From contig JAVTLE010000008.1 in NCBI GenBank assembly GCA_033439295.1, forward strand, positions 1,860,001 to 1,924,000: 64,000 nucleotides of DNA, given 5' to 3'. Under the pieces are notes generated by a model that did no database searches, was not told the origin of the DNA, and saw only the letters and a program-made list of their open reading frames with translations. Source of the stretch: Deuterostichococcus epilithicus. Taxonomy: Eukaryota > Chlorophyta > Trebouxiophyceae > Prasiolales > Stichococcaceae. The stretch's first letter is position 1; every line of letters starts with the position of its first letter. The position numbers and the translations under genes were made by a program. Of the stretch, positions 51,948 to 64,000 are shown one piece after another.

Positions 51948-52184
51948 AATAATTTGCGGTGGGCCGAATACAGGTCATCGGCTCCTCGCAATGAGGAGCA
52001 CGGGTGTTACGCTGGGTATGCGAACATGTGCCACCAGCCTTGGCAACCGAGACTGAGGCTTGAGGAGTGAGGACAGTGATCATATCTGTACATTCACGGG
52101 TTGTTGGGTGCCTTGCGCATTTGGTTTTTGCACACTGGTTGCTGGCTGCATCTGAACCGCAGCTGAAGGTCAATTTGGGCTGTT

Positions 52185-53178
52185 CGATTCACAACAATGG
52201 CCGTTCGCCAGGGGCGAGACGCTAGTTTTTCGTCGGTCGAAAGGGGCCAAATCAAAGGGGAGCAGCCAGGTCGCTAATAAGGCTGGCCGAGGAATGACAG
52301 CACTGAACACCAACCTGTGGCGAAAACGGCTGCAGCACGACACATCGCAACATGCAGCAGCTGGTATGGCATGCTCATTCTAATATGATCGCAGGACTCA
52401 TACAGATGGCAAATCAGCACGTTCCAGGCCACTCACGGCTCGGGTGAGGAAAACATTTATGAAATGTGCATCAGCGTCAGCGCGACGTGAGTTCCCAGGC
52501 CGAAAGTGCAGAAGCACTTTTGACGTCTGCTGAAACGAGCAGGCGCGATTTGCCGCATGCAGCTCGGCAGGCGAGCATCCCCAGCTTGGACATGAACAGC
52601 CCCCCTGGTACTTGGCAGGTGGGCGGATAAACCTACCCACGAGCGGAAGCTGGGCGAAAGTTGAACTTTGCCCGAAATTGTCCGCCGTGATTGATCCCTC
52701 CGAAACACCCCTTATGCAACTTGCTGCAGCGCGCAGCGGCTGCCAGCTGCAGCAGCTGTGCAACCTGCCAGCGGAGCGCTCTGCAGCCCAACGGCTTCTG
52801 AACTACGGTCTGCGTCTGGCGATCGCGATTACCACACTCGTTATAAGGGTGGTTTCATAGGACGGGTGTGCTTCCCCGTTCTATGGAAAATCGTACTAAG
52901 GGCGCGGAAACGATTCTAACGTCAACTCGCCAAATATTAGAACGCCGGCTGCCGGGGCGCCGTTCGCACGGCCGGCTGCAACGCGAGGCGTCTGCCTCAC
53001 GCAAGGTTTGCAGACTGTCTCAAGGAACAGCTGACGGACCACGGAAGGCCTGAAGACGCAGACTGAAACCAGCAAAAGGCGTATGAGGTTTCCCGTCGAC
53101 GACTCTTAGGGTTTACTACGGCCAGGCGAGAACTTAAGAGCATAAGTTTGAATCACCGAAGGTGATTAGACGAAATTC
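52185..53178. repeat. About 1-kb repeat, copy 1
   Basis: It starts near ACAACAATGGCCGTTCGCC and ends near GTTTGAATCACCGAAGGTGA. It shares its whole length, with indels, with the copies at about 57370-58313 and 58343-59358. Shared landmarks are CAGGGGCGAGACGCTA at the start, GCAACATGCAGCAGCTGG, TCTATGGAAAATCGTACTAA (52882-52901), CGGCTGCCGGGGCGCCG, ACGACTCTTAGGGTTTAC, and a terminal hairpin. The terminal hairpin is decayed in this copy (GATTAGAC instead of GATCAAAC). A plus-strand frame (52868-53053, reading SMENRTKGAETILTSTRQIL) is conserved between copies but may only reflect DNA similarity. No transposase was recognised. Confidence 0.9.
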
Positions 53179-53740
53179 AGTAGTCCGCATACCAGCCCTT
53201 GCGCACGCAGCGTCCTAGCTTGGACACTCGGCCTAGAGGCTCGACTTTGCTTCAGTGTTCCGCCGCTTGCCGCCGCACCCTCGCTTTATTGCTAACCCCC
53301 TATCTGGACATCCAGATTTCAAACCATCCATCTTGTGCAACTGCCGGGCTTGCCGATGGGCACAGCACGCTGCCGATTGCCAATTCAGATGGCAATCAAA
53401 CATCGGTGCTGGATCGAGGTGCTGGAATCTTGCATTGCTCCTCATCTACCCATAGCTTTGCGCCTTTGCCCACACCACCACCGCGCCCAGCGCTGTGGCG
53501 GCCGCTACGCACATGCGCAGTGCGTCAATCGGGCCTTCGGCTGGTGGCGCAGCTAGAAAGACGCCGTTCGCTGCTGGCGCGCTGTCGTTCGCCACTGTGC
53601 TGGGGGGTTGCTGCCGGAACGGCATCGTCACCGGCGGCTTCGTCCGCCAATGCTGGGGCTTCCTCTGTCATCACCTGTGAAAATGTGAATCCAACACTGA
53701 TGGACAGGGCATCAGTGGTGTGCGGTGTGTGAGCAGAGTG

Positions 53741-53786
53741 TGTGGGGTTTGGAAGGGGGTTGGGTGGTGATGTGATGTGGGGTTTG
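53741..53786 (-). terminator. C-rich tract after U4 (putative 3'-end signal)
   Basis: On the transcribed strand AAACCCCACATCACATCACC follows the U4 3' hairpin directly, then more C-rich sequence. The U5 gene has AAACCCCACCCC at the same position and U1 has ACCCCGACCCCC. The role in snRNA 3'-end formation is inferred from this shared position. Confidence 0.5.
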
Positions 53787-53933
53787 GAGGGATACAGCCG
53801 AAGCGCCCTCCGTCCAGAAATTGTCAGAGGGCCGAGGCCACAATGACGGGGATTGGATTTAGTTTTCAACCAGCAATAGTCGCGTCTCGGTTAGACCTCA
53901 TTAACTGCGACATTGCCCCAAGCGCAAAGGTAT
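53786..53933 (-). ncRNA. U4: U4 spliceosomal snRNA
   Basis: The transcribed strand starts ATACCTTTGCGCTTGGGGCA and continues with the 5' stem-loop kink-turn (CAGTTAATGAGG ... CCGAGACGCG) bound by the 15.5K/Snu13 protein. Next come CTATTGCTGGTTGAAAAC, a central region, an Sm site (CTGACAATTTCTGG) and a 3' hairpin GGAGGG-x(17)-CCCTCC with CTTCGG in it. The length of about 148 matches known U4 RNAs. The U6-pairing sequences (stem I GCTTGG-type and stem II at the 5' end) are present. Its ACCCATAAC upstream element is at 53991-53999. U4 holds U6 inactive in the tri-snRNP. Confidence 0.95.
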
Positions 53934-53990
53934 CCTACACACACGAAACCGAGAATATGAGAGGCTTTGCCCGCGGTCGGCACTGCCCGA

Positions 53991-53999
53991 GTTATGGGT
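53991..53999 (-). promoter_or_regulatory. snRNA upstream element of U4
   Basis: ACCCATAAC on the transcribed strand, about 58-66 bases before the predicted U4 5' end. The same nine bases precede U5, U1 and U2. Confidence 0.75.
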
Positions 54000-54009
54000 T
54001 TGGTGACGT

Positions 54010-54880
54010 GAGACATTGAGTCCCAGCGTCGTGGGCGCTTTGCTAGATAGGTACCTAGTATAATTTCTTGCTCCAATGGTGACAATTGAGTCGTAGACCT
54101 TTCTGTGACACCAATGCATCCTTTCGCGGGTCGGCATTAGAGAGTTCGTTCAACTCCGCAGCGCAGCAGCCGAGAGTACAGAGAGAAGCTGTGGCAAACT
54201 CCCAAGCGGTAGAAGGGCACTAAACCCTGCGGGACATCGGCAATAGCAGCATAGTGCCGCGGAGCTATGCCACACGCTCTGTGACGGCGTCCACTAATTG
54301 ATCCTCCAGCGGCATCCAAAAGGTCAATTTGCTCAGCACGTTGGATGTTGTGCGGCGGCAGATGCAGCGCCGCCTGCCACTACACAACACCCAACAGCTG
54401 CGGATCATCCGGCTGATCGCGCCACAGTTCAGCAGGGCAATTTTTTTATTCGCCACAGTTCAAAGAGAGCGCCGACATGCCCTCTTCTAGCAAGCCCCTG
54501 CGCCAGCTCTGCAGGCTCACCTGGGTCTGGCTGGCGGCCGCGTCGGTGTGCAGGCTGGAAAGCGGCCCTCGTTGAACGTCTTTGGGCACAGGTCCACGTC
54601 GGCGCGCCGGGTGCAATGCTACCGCACCGCGGTGCAGTCCGCGCATGTCGCTGCTAGTTGCTCATACTTCGCTGAGCCTGGGTTGTAATGTCGTGAAAAG
54701 TAGAGCACATCTGTCAGGTCAGTGTCAGCGGCATGTGATTGACCCCAACCGTTTCCGCCGCAATGCATGTCACCCTAGTGCATTGCAGCGTATTCATCGC
54801 CATGGCACACGGGCAGCTGATCGGTGCCTAACGCTTGCGAGAGGTTCGACAAGGGAGTGTTCCGAAAGGGAACACGGTGG
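54010..54880. other. Spacer between U4 and U5 genes
   Basis: No protein exon or known RNA was recognised. The sequence has several short inverted repeats (for example TAGGTACCTA at 54047-54056). It could hide another small RNA, but no ACCCATAAC element lies inside it. Confidence 0.4.
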
Positions 54881-54926
54881 TTGGGGGAGGGGAAGAGGGG
54901 GAGGAGGGGGGACGGGGTGGGGTTTG
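54880..54926 (-). terminator. C-rich tract after U5 (putative 3'-end signal)
   Basis: Reads AAACCCCACCCCGTCCCCCC on the transcribed strand directly after the 3' hairpin, then more C-rich sequence. Compare the U4 tract. Confidence 0.5.
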
Positions 54927-55041
54927 GTGCCGACAGGCACAGAAAAATTTTGGGAAATACGGCTTGTCGAAGACAGCGCTCGGAAATCTTTAGTAAAAGG
55001 CGAAAGATTTGTACGGCAACAGAGCTGACCTCGCCGTTGGT
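54924..55041 (-). ncRNA. U5: U5 spliceosomal snRNA
   Basis: The invariant loop 1 region is intact on the transcribed strand: AAATCTTTCGCCTTTTACTA then AAGATTTCCG (about 55012-54982), the U5 loop that aligns the two exons. Flanking strands ACGGC and GCCGT close the long stem. Then follow an Sm site (AAAATTTTTCTG, about 54952-54941) and a 3' hairpin GTGCC-TGTC-GGCAC (54940-54927). The 5' end was set at about 55041 from the closing stem and the spacing to the upstream element. Length is about 118. It is followed at once by an AAACCCCAC tract. Confidence 0.94.
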
Positions 55042-55098
55042 TTAACCCGAAAATATGCCAGGTAACATTCCAAGCGATTTTGGCTGTTGGGGTGACGG

Positions 55099-55107
55099 GT
55101 TATGGGT
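55099..55107 (-). promoter_or_regulatory. snRNA upstream element of U5
   Basis: ACCCATAAC on the transcribed strand, about 58-66 bases upstream of the proposed 5' end. Confidence 0.75.
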
Positions 55108-55697
55108 CAAGATGTCCCAACTTCTGTGCTGTGGTTCTCGCGACAAAGCTACAATTTCGACTCCAAACAGACTCAGACCATACACGCATGTCGTTAGCGT
55201 TGAATATTCTTTCGCGATGCAATGAGATGACGAGAGAGCAAGCACTTGTACGAAGTGACGAGCTGCCGCCATGAGGACGTTGCCGCACCGCAGGCCGCCG
55301 AGGAAGACCGCCATCGCCACTGCAGTGCACGAGACCGAGCAGTGGCGAGACCGGGCTGGCGAGTAAATTTTTCCACTTGGTGTTTAAAAGACTGTCTTGT
55401 CAACAACACACATTGCAGGCGTGGGCGTGCTGTAGGCTCTGATGCCAAGAGCATATACGGNTAACTAAGCGCCGCTGCTGCGGCAGGCTGTGTGGGGGAA
55501 GAGAGGTAGCAGCGGGGGCCGTGCGGGGTCAGCGCCAGTGTTGGCGGATTAAAGTGTGAGCCCGCTGCTGCAGCGTCGCTGGGCACAGCCGCGTTTGCGG
55601 CAGGCNTGGCAGAATTACACAGCTGCGGTAAAGAGGTTGCTCTGACACCGTGCCGCGGCCAAGCCATGAAATAAGGAAGCTATGCTGAAATATGTAG

Positions 55698-55765
55698 TGT
55701 GGTGGGGTGGGGTGGGGTTGAGGTTGGGGTTGAGGATGCGCATGCGCAAAACCTCGGCCTACTTC
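55698..55765 (-). repeat. Orphan copy of the U1 3' hairpin plus C-rich tract
   Basis: The transcribed-strand sequence TAGGCCGAGG-TTTTGCGCATGCGCATCCTC then AACCCCAACC closely matches the U1 3' hairpin (TAGGCTGAGG-CTTGCGCATGCGCATCCTC) and its following tract. No U1-like body lies upstream. It is a partial duplication, perhaps a U1 pseudogene remnant. Confidence 0.8.
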
Positions 55766-55837
55766 AATCATGGACGCCATGCAAACCCCGCATTGTTAGC
55801 CTGGATGAAATGCTAGGTGCAGATTAGCCGTTTGCAG

Positions 55838-55880
55838 CGTGGGCGGGGGGGAGTGGGGGTGGGGGGAGGGGGTCGGGGTG
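55838..55880 (-). terminator. C-rich tract after U1 (putative 3'-end signal)
   Basis: ACCCCGACCCCCTCCCCCCA on the transcribed strand follows the U1 3' hairpin at once, then continues as a C-rich run. Confidence 0.5.
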
Positions 55881-56041
55881 CCGAGGATGCGCATGCGCAA
55901 GCCTCAGCCTACCATAAATTATTCCGTCGGAACGCAGACTTGCTACGACCATAGAGCGACCGCAAGCAGAGTGCAAGGCGAGCAGTCAACTCTACCGCCG
56001 ACCCCTTCGTGATCAGGTCGAACGGCCGGACAGGTAAGTAT
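55880..56041 (-). ncRNA. U1: U1 spliceosomal snRNA
   Basis: The transcribed strand starts ATACTTACCTG, the invariant 5' end that pairs with 5' splice sites. Stem-loop I has loop GATCACGAAG (U1-70K site) closed by CGACC/GGTCG. Stem-loop II has loop CTTGCACTC (U1A site). The Sm site is AATAATTTATGG (about 55923-55912), followed by a 3' hairpin GCTGAGG ... CCTCGGC. The length of about 162 is canonical. The upstream element ACCCATAAC lies at 56104-56112. Confidence 0.96.
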
Positions 56042-56103
56042 GCTGTAAACGAGTTTTCAAACAGGACTTCGATCGATGGTTAGATGCATCTCCCAAACGA
56101 CCA

Positions 56104-56112
56104 GTTATGGGT
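56104..56112 (-). promoter_or_regulatory. snRNA upstream element of U1
   Basis: ACCCATAAC on the transcribed strand, 63-71 bases upstream of the U1 5' end. No TATA box is evident between it and the RNA. Confidence 0.75.
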
Positions 56113-56405
56113 TAGGGGTGCTGCACATGACGCTTGCCAGCAGGCGGCTTGTGGCAGGCCTTGACAGCGTGCAGGCATACAGGATATCTAGCAGCAATTG
56201 AGCGNGGCTTTGTAACAGCCAAGCCGGCAAGCACGTGCAAAGACTGCTCACCAAATTGTTTGCGCATCTTGGATCTTCGACTTGCCGCCGCCAACGCTGT
56301 ATGCCAAAACTTAGCCAGTTGAGCACTCAGCAAGCAAGCAGCTGAACAACCCAATGCCTGCAAGTGACTTTCTGATCACGATCTGATCATCATGGCCACA
56401 CCTGC

Positions 56406-56510
56406 AGGTCGTCATGAAAATCGGATGACTCTACGGCAGCAGGTCGTCATGAAAATCGGATGACTATACGGCAGCAGGTCGTCATGAAAATCGGATGACT
56501 ATACGGCAGC
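56406..56510. repeat. 35-bp tandem repeat, three copies
   Basis: AGGTCGTCATGAAAATCGGA plus TGACTCTACGGCAGC repeats three times without spacers. Copies 2 and 3 have TGACTATACG instead of TGACTCTACG. Each unit holds a small inverted pair (GTCAT ... ATGAC). It lies in the spacer between U2 and U1. Confidence 0.95.
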
Positions 56511-56710
56511 ACAGCCGTCGCAACAGCTGTCGATGTGCTAGAAGGCAGCGTTGCCAATGCAGGTCCTAGCTCTCCAGGGTGACACCTGCAATGGGTATAA
56601 AGGTTTCAACTCCAAGCCCCAAAGTTTGCGGCAGCTGAGAAAGATCTGCGGCGTGGCGGCACAAGAACTGCCACCCGCAGGTGGATTGGGCATGTTGAGG
56701 ACACGCATGT

Positions 56711-56766
56711 GAGAAGGAGGGGGGGGGGGTGGCGGATATGGTTTTGGGTGGGGGAGGGCTGCTCGG
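56711..56766 (-). terminator. C-rich tract after U2 (putative 3'-end signal)
   Basis: Starts ACCGAGCAGCCCTCCCCCAC after the terminal U2 hairpin on the transcribed strand and continues C-rich to about 56711. Confidence 0.45.
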
Positions 56767-56951
56767 TCATGGCTGTAGTGCAGTGCCATGTCCAAGCGGG
56801 CAGGTCCGACCGACGCAAGCGTCGGTATGGTNGAGCCTACCGCCCAGAAAAATTCATTTGATCGAAACGGTTCAATGAACCGATATCAGCGATCAAACTG
56901 ATAAGAACAGATACTATACTTGATCTTAGCCAAATAGGCCGAGAAAGGTAT
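56766..56951 (-). ncRNA. U2: U2 spliceosomal snRNA, variant branch-recognition site
   Basis: The transcribed strand starts ATACCTTTCTCGGCCTATTT, then GGCTAAGATCAAGTATAGTA and TCTGTTCTTATCAGTTTGAT, diagnostic for U2. Stem IIa/b (CGGTTC-ATT-GAACCG type), an Sm site (AATTTTTCTGG, about 56854-56844), a perfect stem-loop III (ACCGACGC/GCGTCGGT) and stem-loop IV (CATGGC-ACTGCACTACA-GCCATG, the U2A'/B'' site) complete it, at about 186 bases. The branch-point recognition segment is ATAGTA instead of the usual GTAGTA. One undetermined base (N, 56832) falls between the Sm site and stem III. The upstream element is at 57013-57021. Confidence 0.95.
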
Positions 56952-57012
56952 ATTTGAAACTGTGCATGCCTGACTGTCATGGTTCGGGAGCAATAGCCCG
57001 CATACGCCTCGA

Positions 57013-57021
57013 GTTATGGGT
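57013..57021 (-). promoter_or_regulatory. snRNA upstream element of U2
   Basis: ACCCATAAC on the transcribed strand, 62-70 bases upstream of the U2 5' end. Confidence 0.75.
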
Positions 57022-57369
57022 GGAACCTCATGCCTGATGTGTGGAGCTGCGCCTGTTCCTTGCCTTTCGGCCAGCATGCTTCCGGTGGCCATGGGTTTGG
57101 CAACTCAATTTTCTAGTCACGTATGTATTGCACTGCAATGTCCGGGCACACTGCGACAATTCCCAATCATCATGCGAGTGCCGCTCTTGACCACATGGGC
57201 TGGGGCCGTGGGGCGCCAGTGCGGCGGCACCAAGACTCCATTGAATACAGCCGCCAACTTGCTCTGTGGCTCAGCACACCAAAGAAGGCGATCCTGGCGG
57301 CCACCTGGCACGCTTCAGATGTCTACAGGGTTGGCAACACTGATCCGTTGATCATCTGATCCGCTTGCC

Positions 57370-58313
57370 CATAACAATGGGCGTTCCGCGTTCGCCAGGG
57401 GCGAGACGCTAAATTGAATGTCAGTCGAAAAGGGCCAGCCAGGTGGCTAATCAGGCCGGCCGAGGGATGACAGCACTGGGCNGNGCAGCACCCTGTGGCG
57501 AAAACGGCTACAGCAGAATGACACGTCGCAACATGCAGCAGCTGGCATGGCATGCTCATGCTAGTACGATCGCAGGACTCGTACAGATAGCAAATCAGCA
57601 TGCTCCAGGACACTCACGGCTCGGGGTGAGGAAATGCATGACGCAGCGTCAGCGCGACGGGAGAGCCGAAAGCGCTCGCACATCAGTGCAGAAGCACTTC
57701 TGACGTCTGCTGGAACGAGCACGCGCAATTTGCCGCATGCAGCTCGGCTGCCAAGCATCCCCAGCCAGGCACAGCCAGGAGGATGGCTGGGGATTCAAAA
57801 GTCCTTAGTTATCCCCCGTCATTGATCCCTCCGAAACGCCCCTTATGCAACCTGCTGCAGCGCGCACAGCGGCTGCCAGCTGCAGCAGCTGCGCAACCTG
57901 CCTGCGGATTGCTCTGCAGCCTGAAGGCTTCCGAATCACAGTCTGCGTCTGGCAATCGCGAACACAACCCTCGTTAAAGGACCAGAGGGGTTAGGACGGG
58001 TGTGCTTCCCCGTTCTATGGAAAATTGTACTAAAAGCGCGGAAACGATTCTTACATCAACTCGCCAAATCTTACGACGCCGGCTGCCGGGGCGCCGCGCC
58101 CACGGCCAGCCGCAGCGCGAGGCGCCTGCCTCACGCAAGGTCTGCAGACTGACCCAAGGAACAGCTGACGGACCACGGAAGACCCGAAGCCGCAGTCTGA
58201 CACCGGCAGAAGGCGGAGGAGGTTTTCCGTCGACGACTCTTAGGGTTTACAACGGCCAGGCGGAAAATTTGAGTGTACAAGTTTGAATCATCGAAGGTGA
58301 TCAAACTAAAAGC
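57370..58313. repeat. About 1-kb repeat, copy 2
   Basis: Starts near ACAATGGGCGTTCCGCGTTC and ends near GAAGGTGATCAAACTAAA. It aligns along its length with copies 1 and 3 and holds two undetermined bases (57482, 57484). Middle part (about 57775-57830) is shorter than in copies 1 and 3. The plus-strand frame 58002-58286 corresponds to that of copy 1. Confidence 0.9.
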
Positions 58314-58342
58314 CAGAAAGAAAGCCGCAGCGTGAAGTCCCA

Positions 58343-59358
58343 CAAACAACAATGGGCGCTCGCCGGGGTCGAGACGCGAGTTTGATCAGATCGCTCGAAA
58401 GGGGCCAGTCGAAAGGGGAGCGGCCAGGTCGGTGATAAGGCTGGCCTGCCGAGGAATGACAGCACCGGGCAGCACCCTGTAGCGAAAACGGCCACAGCAA
58501 AATGACGCATCGCAACATGCAGCAGCTGGCATGGCATGCTCATCCTCATATCATCGCAGGACTCATACAGATAGCAAATCAGCACGCTCCAGGACTCTCA
58601 CGGCTTGGGGTGAGGGAAAAATTCAAGAAATGCGCATGAGAATCAGGGCGACATGAAGTTTCCACGCCGAAAGCGCTCGCACATCACTGCAGAAGCCTTT
58701 CTGACATCTGCTGGAACAAGCAGGCGCAATTTCCCGCATGCAGCTCGGACGGCGAGCATCCCCACCTTGGACATGAACAGTCCCCCTCGTACTTGGCAGG
58801 TGGGCGAGTAAAGTTACCCACGAGCGGAAGCTGAGCAAAAGTTACACTTTGTCTCAATTTTCCCCCGTTATTGATCCTTTCGGAGCGCCCCTTTTTGAAC
58901 CTGCCGCAGCACGCAGCGGCTGCCAGCTGCAGCAGCCGTGCAACCTGCGTGCGGACCGCTCTGCAGCCCGAAGGCTTCCGAATCACAGTCTGCGTCTGGC
59001 ATTCGCGGATATCACCCTCGTTTTCATGCCTAGCAATAAGTACCCAGAATCATCCCCCGTTCTATGGAAAATCGTACTAAGGGCGCGGAAACGAGTCTTA
59101 CATCAACTCGCCAAATCTTACAACGCCGGCTGCCGGGGCGCCGTTCGCACGACCAGCCGCAGCGCGAGGCGCCTGCCTCACGCAAGGTCTGCAGAATGGC
59201 CCAAGGAACAGCTGACGGACCACGGAAGACCCGAAGACGCAGGTTGCCACCGGCAGCAGGCGTAAGAAGTTTCCCGTCGACGACTCTTAGGGTTTACTAC
59301 GGCCAGGCGGAAAACTTGAGTGCATCAGTTTGAATCACCGAAGGTGATCAAACTAAAA
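58343..59358. repeat. About 1-kb repeat, copy 3 (tandem with copy 2)
   Basis: Begins about 30 bases after copy 2 ends, so copies 2 and 3 are head-to-tail. It starts ACAACAATGGGCGCTCGCC and ends TTTGAATCACCGAAGGTGAT, CAAACTAAA. The terminal hairpin is best preserved here: GTTTGAATCACC and GGTGATCAAAC pair with one bulged base around a CGAA turn. The plus-strand frame 59064-59333 corresponds to those of the other copies. Confidence 0.9.
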
Positions 59359-59388
59359 TGCAGCTTGCTGCACATGCATCGGCCGCTC

Positions 59389-61054
59389 CTAAGCATAGAC
59401 GCCTGCCGTCACACGCTGCCACTGCAGTGCCGCGACTGCTGCATTCACGCTGTGCAGCACTAGCCGCGCAGCCTGCAATTGCAGCGGCCCGAGCGCATGC
59501 GCTGGCAGCCAGTCCTCTGCGCTGTACAGGGCCGCATACCGCAAGTTGGCGCTGACCGCCATGAATGCCGCACGCCGCAGTGCACTTTGCAGCACGTGGG
59601 CAGGCTGCTGGCGCTGCGTTGATGTGGCTATGTCGTGCACAATGCTGCTGCCGCCCGCTGCCTTGTGGGCTTCTGCAGATTGTCCTGAGCTACCCAAACT
59701 GATGGCGCTCCCAGCCCATCCGCGCCGAGTCGCAGCAAGCCGGCGTGCTGTGATGCTGCCGGCGCAGCCTGTGCCCAGGCCGACTAGGCCCAGGCCGAGC
59801 CCCTGTCGCATCAGCCGCTGGAGGATGGCGAGCAGCCCTGGCTTGCCGCCAGAGGCGGCCGACACTGCCCTGCACGGTCCAGAAGTGGCTGCGTGTCGCT
59901 ACAGACTGCAAGCTGAAGTGCATCATAGGTGGGACGCAATGCATGGCTGGCGCTCATTTGAGCGTCATCCTCACAGCAGCGCTGTGAGTGTCTGGAATTC
60001 ATCAAGGGCAGATGGCAGGCAAATGTGTTCAGGCAATCCCATGAAACACATACCTGAGCAGGACCGGCGGCAATGTCTGGCTGAAACCGCCGTGGTGCCT
60101 GAGAGTGATCGTGTCCGCTCGCACGCGCCTTGAGAAAGGCTCGCTGGCGAAGCCGAGCACCAGGGCGTTCAGTAGCGACACAAACACCTGCCAGTGAACA
60201 GTGAATGCCAGCAACAATCAGCGTCCGTTCGACATCTGCTCCAAGTGCGGGGTTTGCAGCGACATTGGCAACAGCGGGTAACTAGGATTCATGGCAGCAT
60301 GCTCATAGAAAGGTGACCGGAATGCGCCTCGCCTGGCTGGCGACAACCTCCGAGCGCTGCAGCGATTCGTCCGGATGCGTCGCGGCGTTGACGCCCAAGA
60401 CGGCGGCGACGTCCATGCCGCCTGACGCGACCACCTTCCACACGAACCAGGGGTCCGCCTCCAAACGCGTCCGCACGCCGATGGCGACCCTGAGTGCAGA
60501 GCATATGGCAGTACCTCTCAGATGACTGGAACGGATGAGGGTCGTATTGCGTCTCGTGTGTTCCCTTGGCACCACTAAGCAGCAAGTCGAAGCCATGCGT
60601 CTGGAACCTGCTCGAGAGATGGAACTTGCCTGTCGAAGGGGCTGCCGGCTGCCTCCTCGCCGTCATCATGGTTGCCGCCTCCGCTGTCCCCTCCTCCGCC
60701 GCCGCTGCCCTGGGGCGGCTTGCCGCCGCCACCGCCCCAGCCCCAGCCGCCACCGCCATCCCCACCGGTCTCCGTTTGCGGTCGCGGCTGGTGCTGGACC
60801 CGCGTCACTGGTGCCTCGTACGCTGTGGCATGCATCCTATGCTCTGGCCGCCCTCGTCGGGAACGGCGCTCAAGGGCTGGCTGCTGCAGGCGCTGGTCAC
60901 CATATCCCCCTTGAAAGGCTGCACAGAGCTGCGCCGGTTGCTGATGCTGCCCAGTGGGAGCCAGCCGCGCGCAGCGCGGGCGCGCCGGCGCGGCCGCAAT
61001 CAGCTGCGGCGCCCGCGCCGCGCTCTCAGCTGCGCGCGCATCACACAGCGGCAT
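59389..61054 (-). CDS. RETICULATA-related (DUF3411) plastid membrane protein
   Basis: ATG at 61054. Next come about 50 Ala/Arg-rich residues (possible transit peptide), a Gly-rich stretch (WGWGGGGGKPPQGSGGGGGD, about 60740-60690) and DUF3411 blocks: RLEADPWFVWKVVASGGMDV (about 60472-60410), VFVSLLNALVLGFASEPFSR (about 60189-60130), GLGLGLVGLGTGCAGSI (about 59805-59755), and a final exon ending ANLRYAALYSAEDWLPAHAL, RLVLHSVNAAVAALQWQRV and TAG at 59391-59389. The order and the terminal NLRY-E---R--N---A--QW pattern match the RETICULATA/LCD1 family, plastid envelope proteins affecting leaf and plastid development in plants. Their biochemical function is unknown. Its start lies 15 bases after the stop codon of the next upstream coding sequence on the same strand, in the same frame. 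Confidence 0.78.
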
Positions 61055-61958: not shown

Positions 61959-64000
61959 ATGAAGGCTGGAGTCCTGCTCGTGCTGCTGCAGCTGCTCGTC
62001 CTTGCTTCAGGTGTGTTTCGTACCGTGTTGTCATGTGCGCCGCTGAAGCTGGCTTACAGGTGCGGCAGGCTTAACTGCATACATTCACTCTGTAGGGGTG
62101 CAAAGGTCGACCGGAAAGCGGGGCGCCCCTGATCCGGATCATCCCTGGTGAGTCCTCAACTGCTTGAAGGTGGCAAAGGTGCATGCTGGCAGCATGCCAC
62201 TGGAAATGGCGCGTTGGTGACGTTGGCGGCAGTTGCCATTGAGGTTGTGCCACTCGACATCTCTGAACATGGAATGCATGGCGAGAACCACCGTTTCAAA
62301 CGAACTGCTCGCTCATCTCATGTCGTGGACATTGTCGTCAGGGCGGAGACCATCAGCTGGCATCCCAGGTGAATGCAACATGTGTGCCGTGCTGTGGCAT
62401 TGGGCTGCACTGTTCATCATGTCAGTGTCCATGATATATAGCTCGAGCAAAACAGGATCCCTTGCACCTGGACGTGCGCAGGGCACAGGTCTTTCACAAC
62501 TTTATGACGCCTGAGGAGTGCGATCACATTGTCAAGGTCGCTCGGCCCATGGTACGCTGCCATGGCTGCACGTGTTGACTCTGAGCGCCGCGAGCAGGAA
62601 CCTGGGTCCTGAGCTACCTGAGCGACACGAAGCAATCGAGCTGTTGTGTCTTTAATTCGACAGATGCGGCAGTCGACGGTGGTGGGAGCCGGAGGCAAGA
62701 GCGTCACAGACACAATCCGCACCAGCAGGGGCACCTTCCTCGGGTGAGGAATCCTGCCTCTTGGCTGGCGAACTTGCAGGTCACGCTGCACGCACGACCG
62801 AAATCTGCACAGCTGTAGCTGGTTGGTTGCCATATTAATCGGAGACTGCCATCGGGAGCGGCAGGCGCATTGCTGGTATTGCATTCGAAGTGTGTGGCTC
62901 GCGCAACCGTCCTCATGGCAGGATGCAGCAACCCGTCTCCCCTGTGCTGCCTCCCAGGCGATATAAGGACGAGGTCATCGGCCGGGTGGAGGAGCGCCTG
63001 GCACTGTGGACGCACCACAACGTCAGCCACCAGGAGGATATGCAGATCCTGCGATATGCTGACCTCCAGAAGTACGGTGCGTGACTGTGTACGATATCGT
63101 GCTGTCTGCTGGCTGATCATCCGAAAGCCCTGTTCCACCTGCTGCCAGGCGGGCTGCTGAGCTACCATCCTGGCAATCAAGGGCGATGTTTCAAGTGAAG
63201 CTGCAGCGCCCTGCCCCAGGACATGCCGCGGCTGCAGCCCTTGACAGGCGGCGTGTAGCAGCAGGGCGCCTTGTGACGTATCTTGTCAGCGGCTCTGCCT
63301 TTCAGTCAACAACGAAAAGAAGCGATTCACATCAAGTTTGCAGGCGTGCACATGGAAGTTTCTGGTGGATGGCCCGCCGCGGCCGGCGACAGCGCTGCTG
63401 CAACACAGTGGCCCCCAGCGAACCCCTTTGCACCCTCTGACATTGACAGCCAACCCCGCAGGCGCGCACATGGATGTGCTGGTGGAGGACACCCCCCGCC
63501 TGGCGATGATGCTGAAAAGTTGTTTTTTTTGCACCGTTTGACATCAGCAGCCAACCCCGCAGGCGCGCACATGGATGTGCTGGTGGAGGACACGCCCCGC
63601 CTGGCGACGGTGCTGCTGTATCTGTCGGACGTGGGGGAGGGCGGCGAGACCGCCTTCCCCAGCAACAGCGTGTGGGCGGACCCGCGCCAGGCCAAGCGCT
63701 TCGGTCCCTTCTCCGAGTGCGCGCAAGGCCATGTGGCCGTCAAGCCCAAGAAGGGTGCGTGCGGTCTGCCCGGCAGCTCTGGGAACACTCGCTCAAGTCC
63801 CTGGCTGACATGGGCAGGCTGTGCTGTGGACTGAAGCCATTAGAAGCGTGCTTCACACACGGCGCGGGGCTGGCCGCAAACATGCTCGTGCCTTCCTGGT
63901 GTCTGCCCCTTGCTGGTCGGGCCTGCGCTTGATTGAAAGGGGTGCTTGGCAGAAGGTGGCGTCGCGCAGCAGCCTGCTGCCATGCACTGGACTGTTCATT
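61959..64000 (+). CDS. Prolyl 4-hydroxylase (2OG-Fe(II) oxygenase), 3' end beyond window
   Basis: Secretory-pathway prolyl 4-hydroxylase that modifies cell-wall hydroxyproline-rich proteins. Exon 1 from ATG 61959 is a signal peptide or anchor ([18 protein letters not shown]). Later exons: AETISWHPR (about 62343-62369); [20 protein letters not shown] (62488-62550); [20 protein letters not shown] (about 62676-62742); [20 protein letters not shown] with [12 protein letters not shown] (about 62962-63077); then [37 protein letters not shown] and [10 protein letters not shown] (63563-63755). Fe(II)-binding His and Asp of HxD are present (HMD); the distal His and the 2-oxoglutarate Lys exon lie beyond the window. 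The joint KYG/AHMD restores the family's QKY--H-D spacing. The first exon start of this domain is present three times (next entry). Confidence 0.92.
63339..63635 (+). repeat. Triplicated exon start in the prolyl hydroxylase gene
   Basis: Acceptor-like CAG followed by GCGxGCACATGGA occurs at 63344, 63462 and 63563. The last is the functional exon (reads [20 protein letters not shown]). The middle copy matches it through GTGGAGGACA and includes about 30 bases of upstream intron, then diverges into a T-run (63522-63529). The first copy is older; in a shifted frame it reads [14 protein letters not shown]. Spacings are 118 and 101 bases. Confidence 0.92.

Follow-up and report, generated by a model that had tools for sequence, protein, structure and literature searches.

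A 64-kb stretch of the genome of Deuterostichococcus epilithicus (the window, C7:1860001-1924000 of 46.8 Mb in 21 contigs) contains the genes for the U2, U1, U5 and U4 small nuclear RNAs (snRNAs) in this order, arranged head-to-tail at 53786-56951 of the minus strand, and it is the only cluster found in which all four are full-length. It is probable that this is the best-preserved copy of an ancestral U2-U1-U5-U4 block, composed of independent transcription units, bounded by a dispersed repeat of about 1 kb (R) and copied as an R-to-R unit, most likely via recombination between R copies. The sequences show the anatomy of the block, the edges that it shares with its copies, one flanking direct repeat and the conservation of the genes; the recombination route, the polymerase and the expression of the genes are inferred.

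A complete snRNA gene block and its relatives

Exactly four RNA genes scored above cut-off in the window with the Rfam covariance models, all on the minus strand and with E values between 7e-29 and 1e-10 (Table 1). The identities, order and strand that a preliminary description had read from the letters alone were borne out by these end-to-end matches, and its gene coordinates hold as well. The U4 RNA probably ends at 53786, as that description had it, since GGAGGG and CCCUCC could pair at the base of a terminal hairpin and every one of the nine U4 copies retains the sequence beyond the Rfam match; the extended fold had no extra stability when compared with shuffled sequences (z 0.33, last 45 nt). 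The 5' ends are separated by 910, 1003 and 1107 bases, where 910, 1000 and 1108 had been given. No U6 gene was found in the window with Rfam, in agreement with the same description, and two are located on other contigs. A tRNA gene search found none, and other Rfam families gave, besides the four snRNAs, only five matches at 52000-59500 (R included), all below cut-off.

When the U1, U2, U4, U5 and U6 models were run on the window and the whole genome, the four window genes passed and more loci appeared elsewhere. Genome counts are lower bounds: at least eight U1 (of ten matches listed), eight U2 (of eight), nine U4 (of nine), five U5 (of five) and two U6 genes (of two) were over threshold. Among the 30 genes for U1, U2, U4 and U5, 22 lie within 5 kb of another type, in at least eight heterotypic clusters; about 0.07 different-type pairs would be expected within this distance by chance for 30 genes in 46.8 Mb, as against 22 seen. 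The window is therefore not a lone set, a reading that we rejected. Genes of different types are closer than chance and the over-threshold members of any one cluster share a strand, the exception being a split U5 at C9, itself below threshold. All four types occur together only in the window and at C12:2855534-2859551, both in the order U2-U1-U5-U4, and in seven of the eight clusters one or more of the four is missing or broken.

Table 1. Features of the snRNA block in the window, with related clusters and U3 genes elsewhere in the genome
Feature	Position	Strand	Remarks
U2 snRNA gene	56754..56951	-	RF00004, 141.5 bits (cut-off 46); end-to-end match; N at 56832
U1 snRNA gene	55880..56041	-	RF00003, 113.5 bits (cut-off 69.5); end-to-end match
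U5 snRNA gene	54925..55038	-	RF00020, 74.1 bits (cut-off 40); end-to-end match
U4 snRNA gene	53786..53931	-	RF00015, 98.5 bits (cut-off 46); end-to-end match at 53800-53931; likely terminal hairpin to 53786
U2 upstream element	57012..57021	-	CACCCATAAC; start -71
U1 upstream element	56103..56113	-	AACCCATAACT; start -72
U5 upstream element	55098..55108	-	GACCCATAACC; start -70
U4 upstream element	53990..54000	-	AACCCATAACT; start -69
R1 (repeat R, copy 1)	52191..53175	+	U4-side outer edge; 3' terminal hairpin altered
R2 (repeat R, copy 2)	57373..58310	+	U2-side outer edge
R3 (repeat R, copy 3)	58346..59357	+	tandem with R2; more similar to solitary R copies
U1 3' stem-loop fragment	55732..55762	-	U1-U5 spacer; present in sister loci too
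35-nt tandem repeat	56404..56511	+	U2-U1 spacer; 3.1 copies
snRNA cluster	C12:4654847		U1-U5-U4
snRNA cluster	C18:3428613		U1-(split U5)-U4
snRNA clusters	C6 and C13		U2-U1
snRNA cluster	C7:552139		U2-U4; 5S gene 1.3 kb further on
snRNA cluster	C9		U1-U2-U4; split below-threshold U5 on opposite strand
U3 gene	C14:1319475-1319701		U6-type promoter
U3 gene	C18:1867759-1867983		U6-type promoter

Four of the other loci are copies of the same block, namely C12:2855534 (L033), C12:4654847 (L034/L035), C18 (L040) and C4:1946366 (L041), whose spacers match those of the window at 85-94% (BLAST). Identity to the window genes is 98-100% for their unbroken U1, U2 and U5 genes and for U4 at C18 and C4. In the two blocks on C12, U4 has an altered 5' end, which lowers the figure to 96.1 and 95.5%. 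Genes are thus more alike than spacers, suggesting that selection or gene conversion acts on the RNA genes. Older clusters have genes at 92-98% and keep remnants of the same order.

Decay of the copies is evident in U4 and U5. At C12:2855534 U4 is without its 5' UUUGCGC, and the predicted duplex with U6 falls to -11.8 kcal/mol, compared to -25.5 for the window; at C12:4654847 U4 is split by a 2.1-kb insert (L034:6938-9072). C18, C6 and C9 each have a split U5.

The U5 gene is interrupted by a mobile element in loop 1, at the same site in the three loci and with CGCCTT at both ends. The 2.2-kb inserts at C18 (L040:4664-6898) and C9 (C9:2022724-2024945) are 97% alike, and that at C6 (C6:776996-777190), of about 320 bp, has its first 200 bp in common with them. 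A fourth remnant (C7:564743-564871) adjoins a U5 promoter, and the element matches one further place in the genome; it looks U5-specific. The insert in U4 starts with the telomere-like TTTAGGGTTAGGGTTTAGGG and has TGCGCTTGGG at both ends. Pfam searches with five frames, three of the 17 listed for the U5 insert and two of the U4 insert, gave one sub-threshold match in the U4 insert and none in the U5 insert frames.

As to the quality of the window copy, we take the core motifs to be ACUUACCUG in U1, loop 1 in U5, UUUGCGC in U4 and GUAGUA in U2, together with a Sm-like site. Sm-like sites were seen in all four window RNAs and the core segments of U1, U5 and U4 are intact. The window U2 has AUAGUA, with A for G at position 35 (window 56917), a base presumably pairing with the branch site, and all seven other U2 matches have GUAGUA. 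This variant raises the idea that the window set is partly non-functional or carries base errors, the RNAs being made by other loci, and two further facts are in line with it: all six ambiguous bases (N) of the window fall at 55461-57484, within the block, and position 2 of the window U4 makes its pairing with U6 slightly weaker than in three other copies (-25.5 vs -27.7 kcal/mol). We nevertheless regard it as rather unlikely, as the four genes score close to the family best, their promoter elements are exact, U1 has the majority base at every position when compared with seven other copies, and U5 is identical to that of the C12:4654847 block. The models do not score these genes as pseudogenes, although near-identical copies exist elsewhere; a pseudogene cluster is not supported by the scores, but the substitution in the U2 core keeps that reading alive. 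Ambiguous bases are also present in six of the seven sister clusters and absent from 10 of the 12 single-gene loci, a concentration that possibly reflects unresolved copies or haplotypes.

Promoters and probable independence of the genes

The window genes look like independent units of the RNA polymerase II (Pol II) type. Each has its own VACCCATAAC element, starting at -69 to -72, and the exact element is found at -69 to -73 in 23 of the 30 over-threshold U1, U2, U4 and U5 genes. No exact TATAWA was present at -40 to -15 in 24 promoters of these four types (one from a split U5); four came within one mismatch, and TATATT occurs at -41 in one promoter. The 60 nt 3' of over-threshold genes are 48-72% C, and these C-rich flanks have no T run. 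An operon with one promoter for several genes was rejected on sequence, given the separate promoter element of each of the four genes.

The same element is found in another class of genes. In the C14 U6 gene and in both U3 genes it lies at -64/-65 and is followed by a TATA box at -28 to -30. In the other U6 gene, TATA accompanies a variant of the element. Such promoters suggest that the U3 genes are of the RNA polymerase III (Pol III) type, as is U3 in land plants. Across the genome RACCCATAACY has 56 matches, against 25 for the reversed control, and 26 of the 56 are at snRNA or U3 loci, including five at broken or orphan copies. The sharing of one element, at a fixed distance, by U1, U2, U4, U5 and U6/U3 genes is what is found in promoters recognized by SNAPc-type factors, and VACCCATAAC may be considered similar to an upstream sequence element (USE) or proximal sequence element (PSE), with putative binding of such a factor.

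It had been proposed in the preliminary description that a compact set could allow coordinated expression or chromatin control of the whole locus. On such a reading the set is kept together for co-regulation, the ratio of the snRNAs being set by a single chromatin domain or by contact with a nuclear body. The persistence of the head-to-tail order in diverged copies would agree with this, and so would the higher frequency of the exact promoter element in clustered genes (20 of 22) than in solitary ones (3 of 8). However, each window gene has its own promoter element and 3' flank, the exact element is kept by three solitary genes (two U5 and one U4), and most clusters are incomplete or broken, which argues that linkage is not essential and leaves co-regulation improbable in our view.

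Edges of the block and its dispersal

The block is flanked by R in direct orientation. Among 47 matches to R listed, 37 cover at least 900 of its 1012 positions (40 of 70 candidates were scored); R starts with AACAATGGGCG and ends in a hairpin followed by CAAACTAA. The sequence common to the blocks breaks off at the R1 5' terminus in all five, and on the other side at the R2 3' terminus in four of the five, so that nine of the ten block ends coincide with R termini. Beyond them, the outer flanks of different blocks gave no BLAST match to one another at 1e-5. Since R is so frequent, its presence at the edges could be incidental to an ordinary segmental duplication, but the coincidence of the ends with its termini and the unrelated flanks make this very unlikely.

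The flanks of four two-ended blocks and of 19 solitary R copies were compared; the ends of 20 solitary copies had been read, five of them in full, and C3b was left out because its 3' end was not recognised. The outer flanks of C12:4654847 carry a 13-nt direct repeat, AAACGAAATTGAA. In the control, 506 mismatched flank pairs gave one 12-nt match, from two R copies beside the same other repeat, the others being of 8 nt or less. Moreover, R1 and R2 of this block are 94.8% alike and most alike in the middle, with the inner end of R1 nearest to R1 of the other blocks and the outer end of R2 nearest to R2 of the C4 block and to solitary copies. This mosaic, together with the 13-nt flanking repeat, fits recombination through R.

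Besides the substitution in the branch-site-pairing segment of U2, several observations weigh against an ancestral block copied from R to R. R is absent from the U2 side of the C18 block, which ends there in sequence unlike any compared locus; R2 at C4 consists of the last 410 nt only, behind about 735 nt of unrelated sequence; R2 at C12:4654847 is without its first 207 positions; and the 5' end of R1 is degraded at C12:2855534. A clear flanking direct repeat is present in only one of the four two-ended blocks, the remaining three having matches of 2-5 nt, and the 19 solitary copies gave one match of 10 nt, one of 11 nt and the rest of 7 nt or less. The 11-nt match, of solitary copy C12a, is ambiguous, as it lies within another repeat and the same letters pair over 12 nt with C19a. 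The outer 300 nt of R1 are 82-92% alike between blocks, more divergent than the cargo and without a sharp breakpoint, and the likeness of R1 and R2 at C12:4654847 could come from later gene conversion. Finally, C9 differs in gene order and in the strand of its split U5, because of which we can only infer the ancestral order.

A more direct route would be composite transposition, in which the machinery of R moved R1, cargo and R2 in one step, the copy running to the 3' end of R2 because the R1 hairpin was altered. The 3' end of R1 is indeed GGTGATTAGAC instead of GGTGATCAAAC in four of the five blocks, the block ends are R termini, and one block has its flanking repeat. However, target duplications are missing from most copies, the mosaic R copies at C12:4654847 are better accounted for by recombination, and the termini of R match no single element class, so we hold this route to be unlikely. 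Helitrons have a 5' TC, a 3' hairpin followed by CTRR, and insert between A and T; R has the 3' hairpin and CTAA, its 5' end is AACAATGG, and the base after CTAA is mostly A or C, not T. Long terminal repeats (LTRs) have TG...CA ends and target duplications of 4-6 bp, and R was rejected as an LTR since it starts with AACAATGG, ends in CTAA and has flank matches of 13, 11 and 10 nt in three of 23 end pairs, with 7 nt or less in the others.

Recombination between R copies is in our view the most likely route. An ancestral head-to-tail U2-U1-U5-U4 block, of which the window would hold the best-preserved copy found, would have come to be bounded by two direct copies of R, and the R-to-R unit would then have been copied to at least four other sites, for example through a circle, made up of the cargo and a single R, that integrates at a solitary R, direct transposition being the less likely route. 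Each gene would be its own transcription unit, with C-rich sequence on its 3' side, the element some 70 bp upstream and no TATA, and the same element plus TATA would serve the U6 and U3 genes. Selection or gene conversion would hold the RNA genes near-identical as the spacers drift, and copies would decay through deletion and through insertions into U5 and U4. The four Pol II-type genes would feed the spliceosome, their linkage being inherited from the ancestral block. More speculatively, and with an expectation on our part well below even, the block might behave as an snRNA cassette: recombination between R copies would release circles of block plus one R from a cluster, and these would return to the genome at a solitary R. 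R would then act as a docking site through which the gene set is renewed and spread, while the U5-specific element and other insertions break copies.

Some neighbouring sequences deserve mention. The stretch of about 109 nt adjoining R1 (window 53177-53285) is itself a dispersed repeat, with more than 30 matches elsewhere. Two of 15 dispersed 5S rRNA genes (C5:2434510-2434628 and C6:770435-770553) are 144 and 467 bp from R copies and another adjoins the C7:552139 cluster; R may favour the neighbourhoods of small-RNA genes. A neighbouring gene encodes an imidazoleglycerol-phosphate dehydratase that is 84-85% identical to the Apatococcus and Myrmecia proteins and 99% identical to one database protein, which by this single protein fits a trebouxiophyte-like green alga. 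The window also contains a tandemly duplicated 101-bp unit (63427-63615) within an apparent prolyl 4-hydroxylase gene, read by eye.

Comparison with known snRNA gene arrangements

The statement in the preliminary description that snRNA genes are usually scattered or in arrays of one type was too strong, as mixed linkages have been published for Arabidopsis, fish and Drosophila. Arabidopsis has seven U1-U4 clusters and also U2-U5 linkage (PMC545797). As in D. epilithicus, genes of different types are close and in fixed order, with solitary copies left over, and the authors favour a duplicated ancestral cluster; in contrast to the window, those clusters have two gene types each, with U1 and U4 180-300 nt apart, and the relevant passages mention no repeat at the edges (PMC545797). 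Linkages of U1-U2-U5 (Soleidae) and U2-U5 in fish, and of U1-U2, U2-U5 and U4-U5 in Drosophila (PMC3464664, PMC4696792), likewise join different Pol II snRNA genes, and in Solea also 5S rRNA, comparable to the C7:552139 cluster. However, the fish U2-U5 units are in tandem arrays, unlike the single dispersed blocks described here, and the passages on fish and Drosophila do not include all four genes.

Insertion into small RNA genes also has a precedent, since Dada DNA transposons insert in snRNA and tRNA genes (PMC8869645). The element in U5 loop 1 resembles them in lying within such a gene and in a 6-bp target duplication; it differs in giving no Pfam match in three of its 17 listed frames, and the term "U5 snRNA" is absent from that paper. 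A block of all four genes is not described in the relevant passages of PMC545797, PMC8869645, PMC4640811, PMC4696792, PMC3464664, PMC4494063 and PMC6461891, and neither such a block nor R-bounded copies were found in the literature searched, which largely excludes subscription papers. Heterotypic snRNA linkage is thus known from plants, fish and flies, and what is new is the complete set of four genes and its R-bounded dispersal. To our knowledge, the movement and homogenisation of snRNA gene copies are poorly documented. Here the route of spread becomes testable through five related blocks whose edges are set by a repeat, a flanking duplication at one of them and mosaic repeats.

The promoters can be compared with two known rules. 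In land plants, snRNA promoters consist of a USE and a TATA box, whose spacing sets the polymerase; in vertebrates, TATA marks Pol III. Like land plants, D. epilithicus has a single upstream element for genes of both the Pol II and the Pol III type, which in U6 and U3 lies about 5-9 bp closer to the start. Unlike land plants, its U1, U2, U4 and U5 genes have no TATA, which is nearer to the vertebrate rule. This clean contrast, between the element with TATA (U6, U3) and the element without it (U1, U2, U4, U5), is relevant to the evolution of polymerase choice between the plant-like and the animal-like rule.

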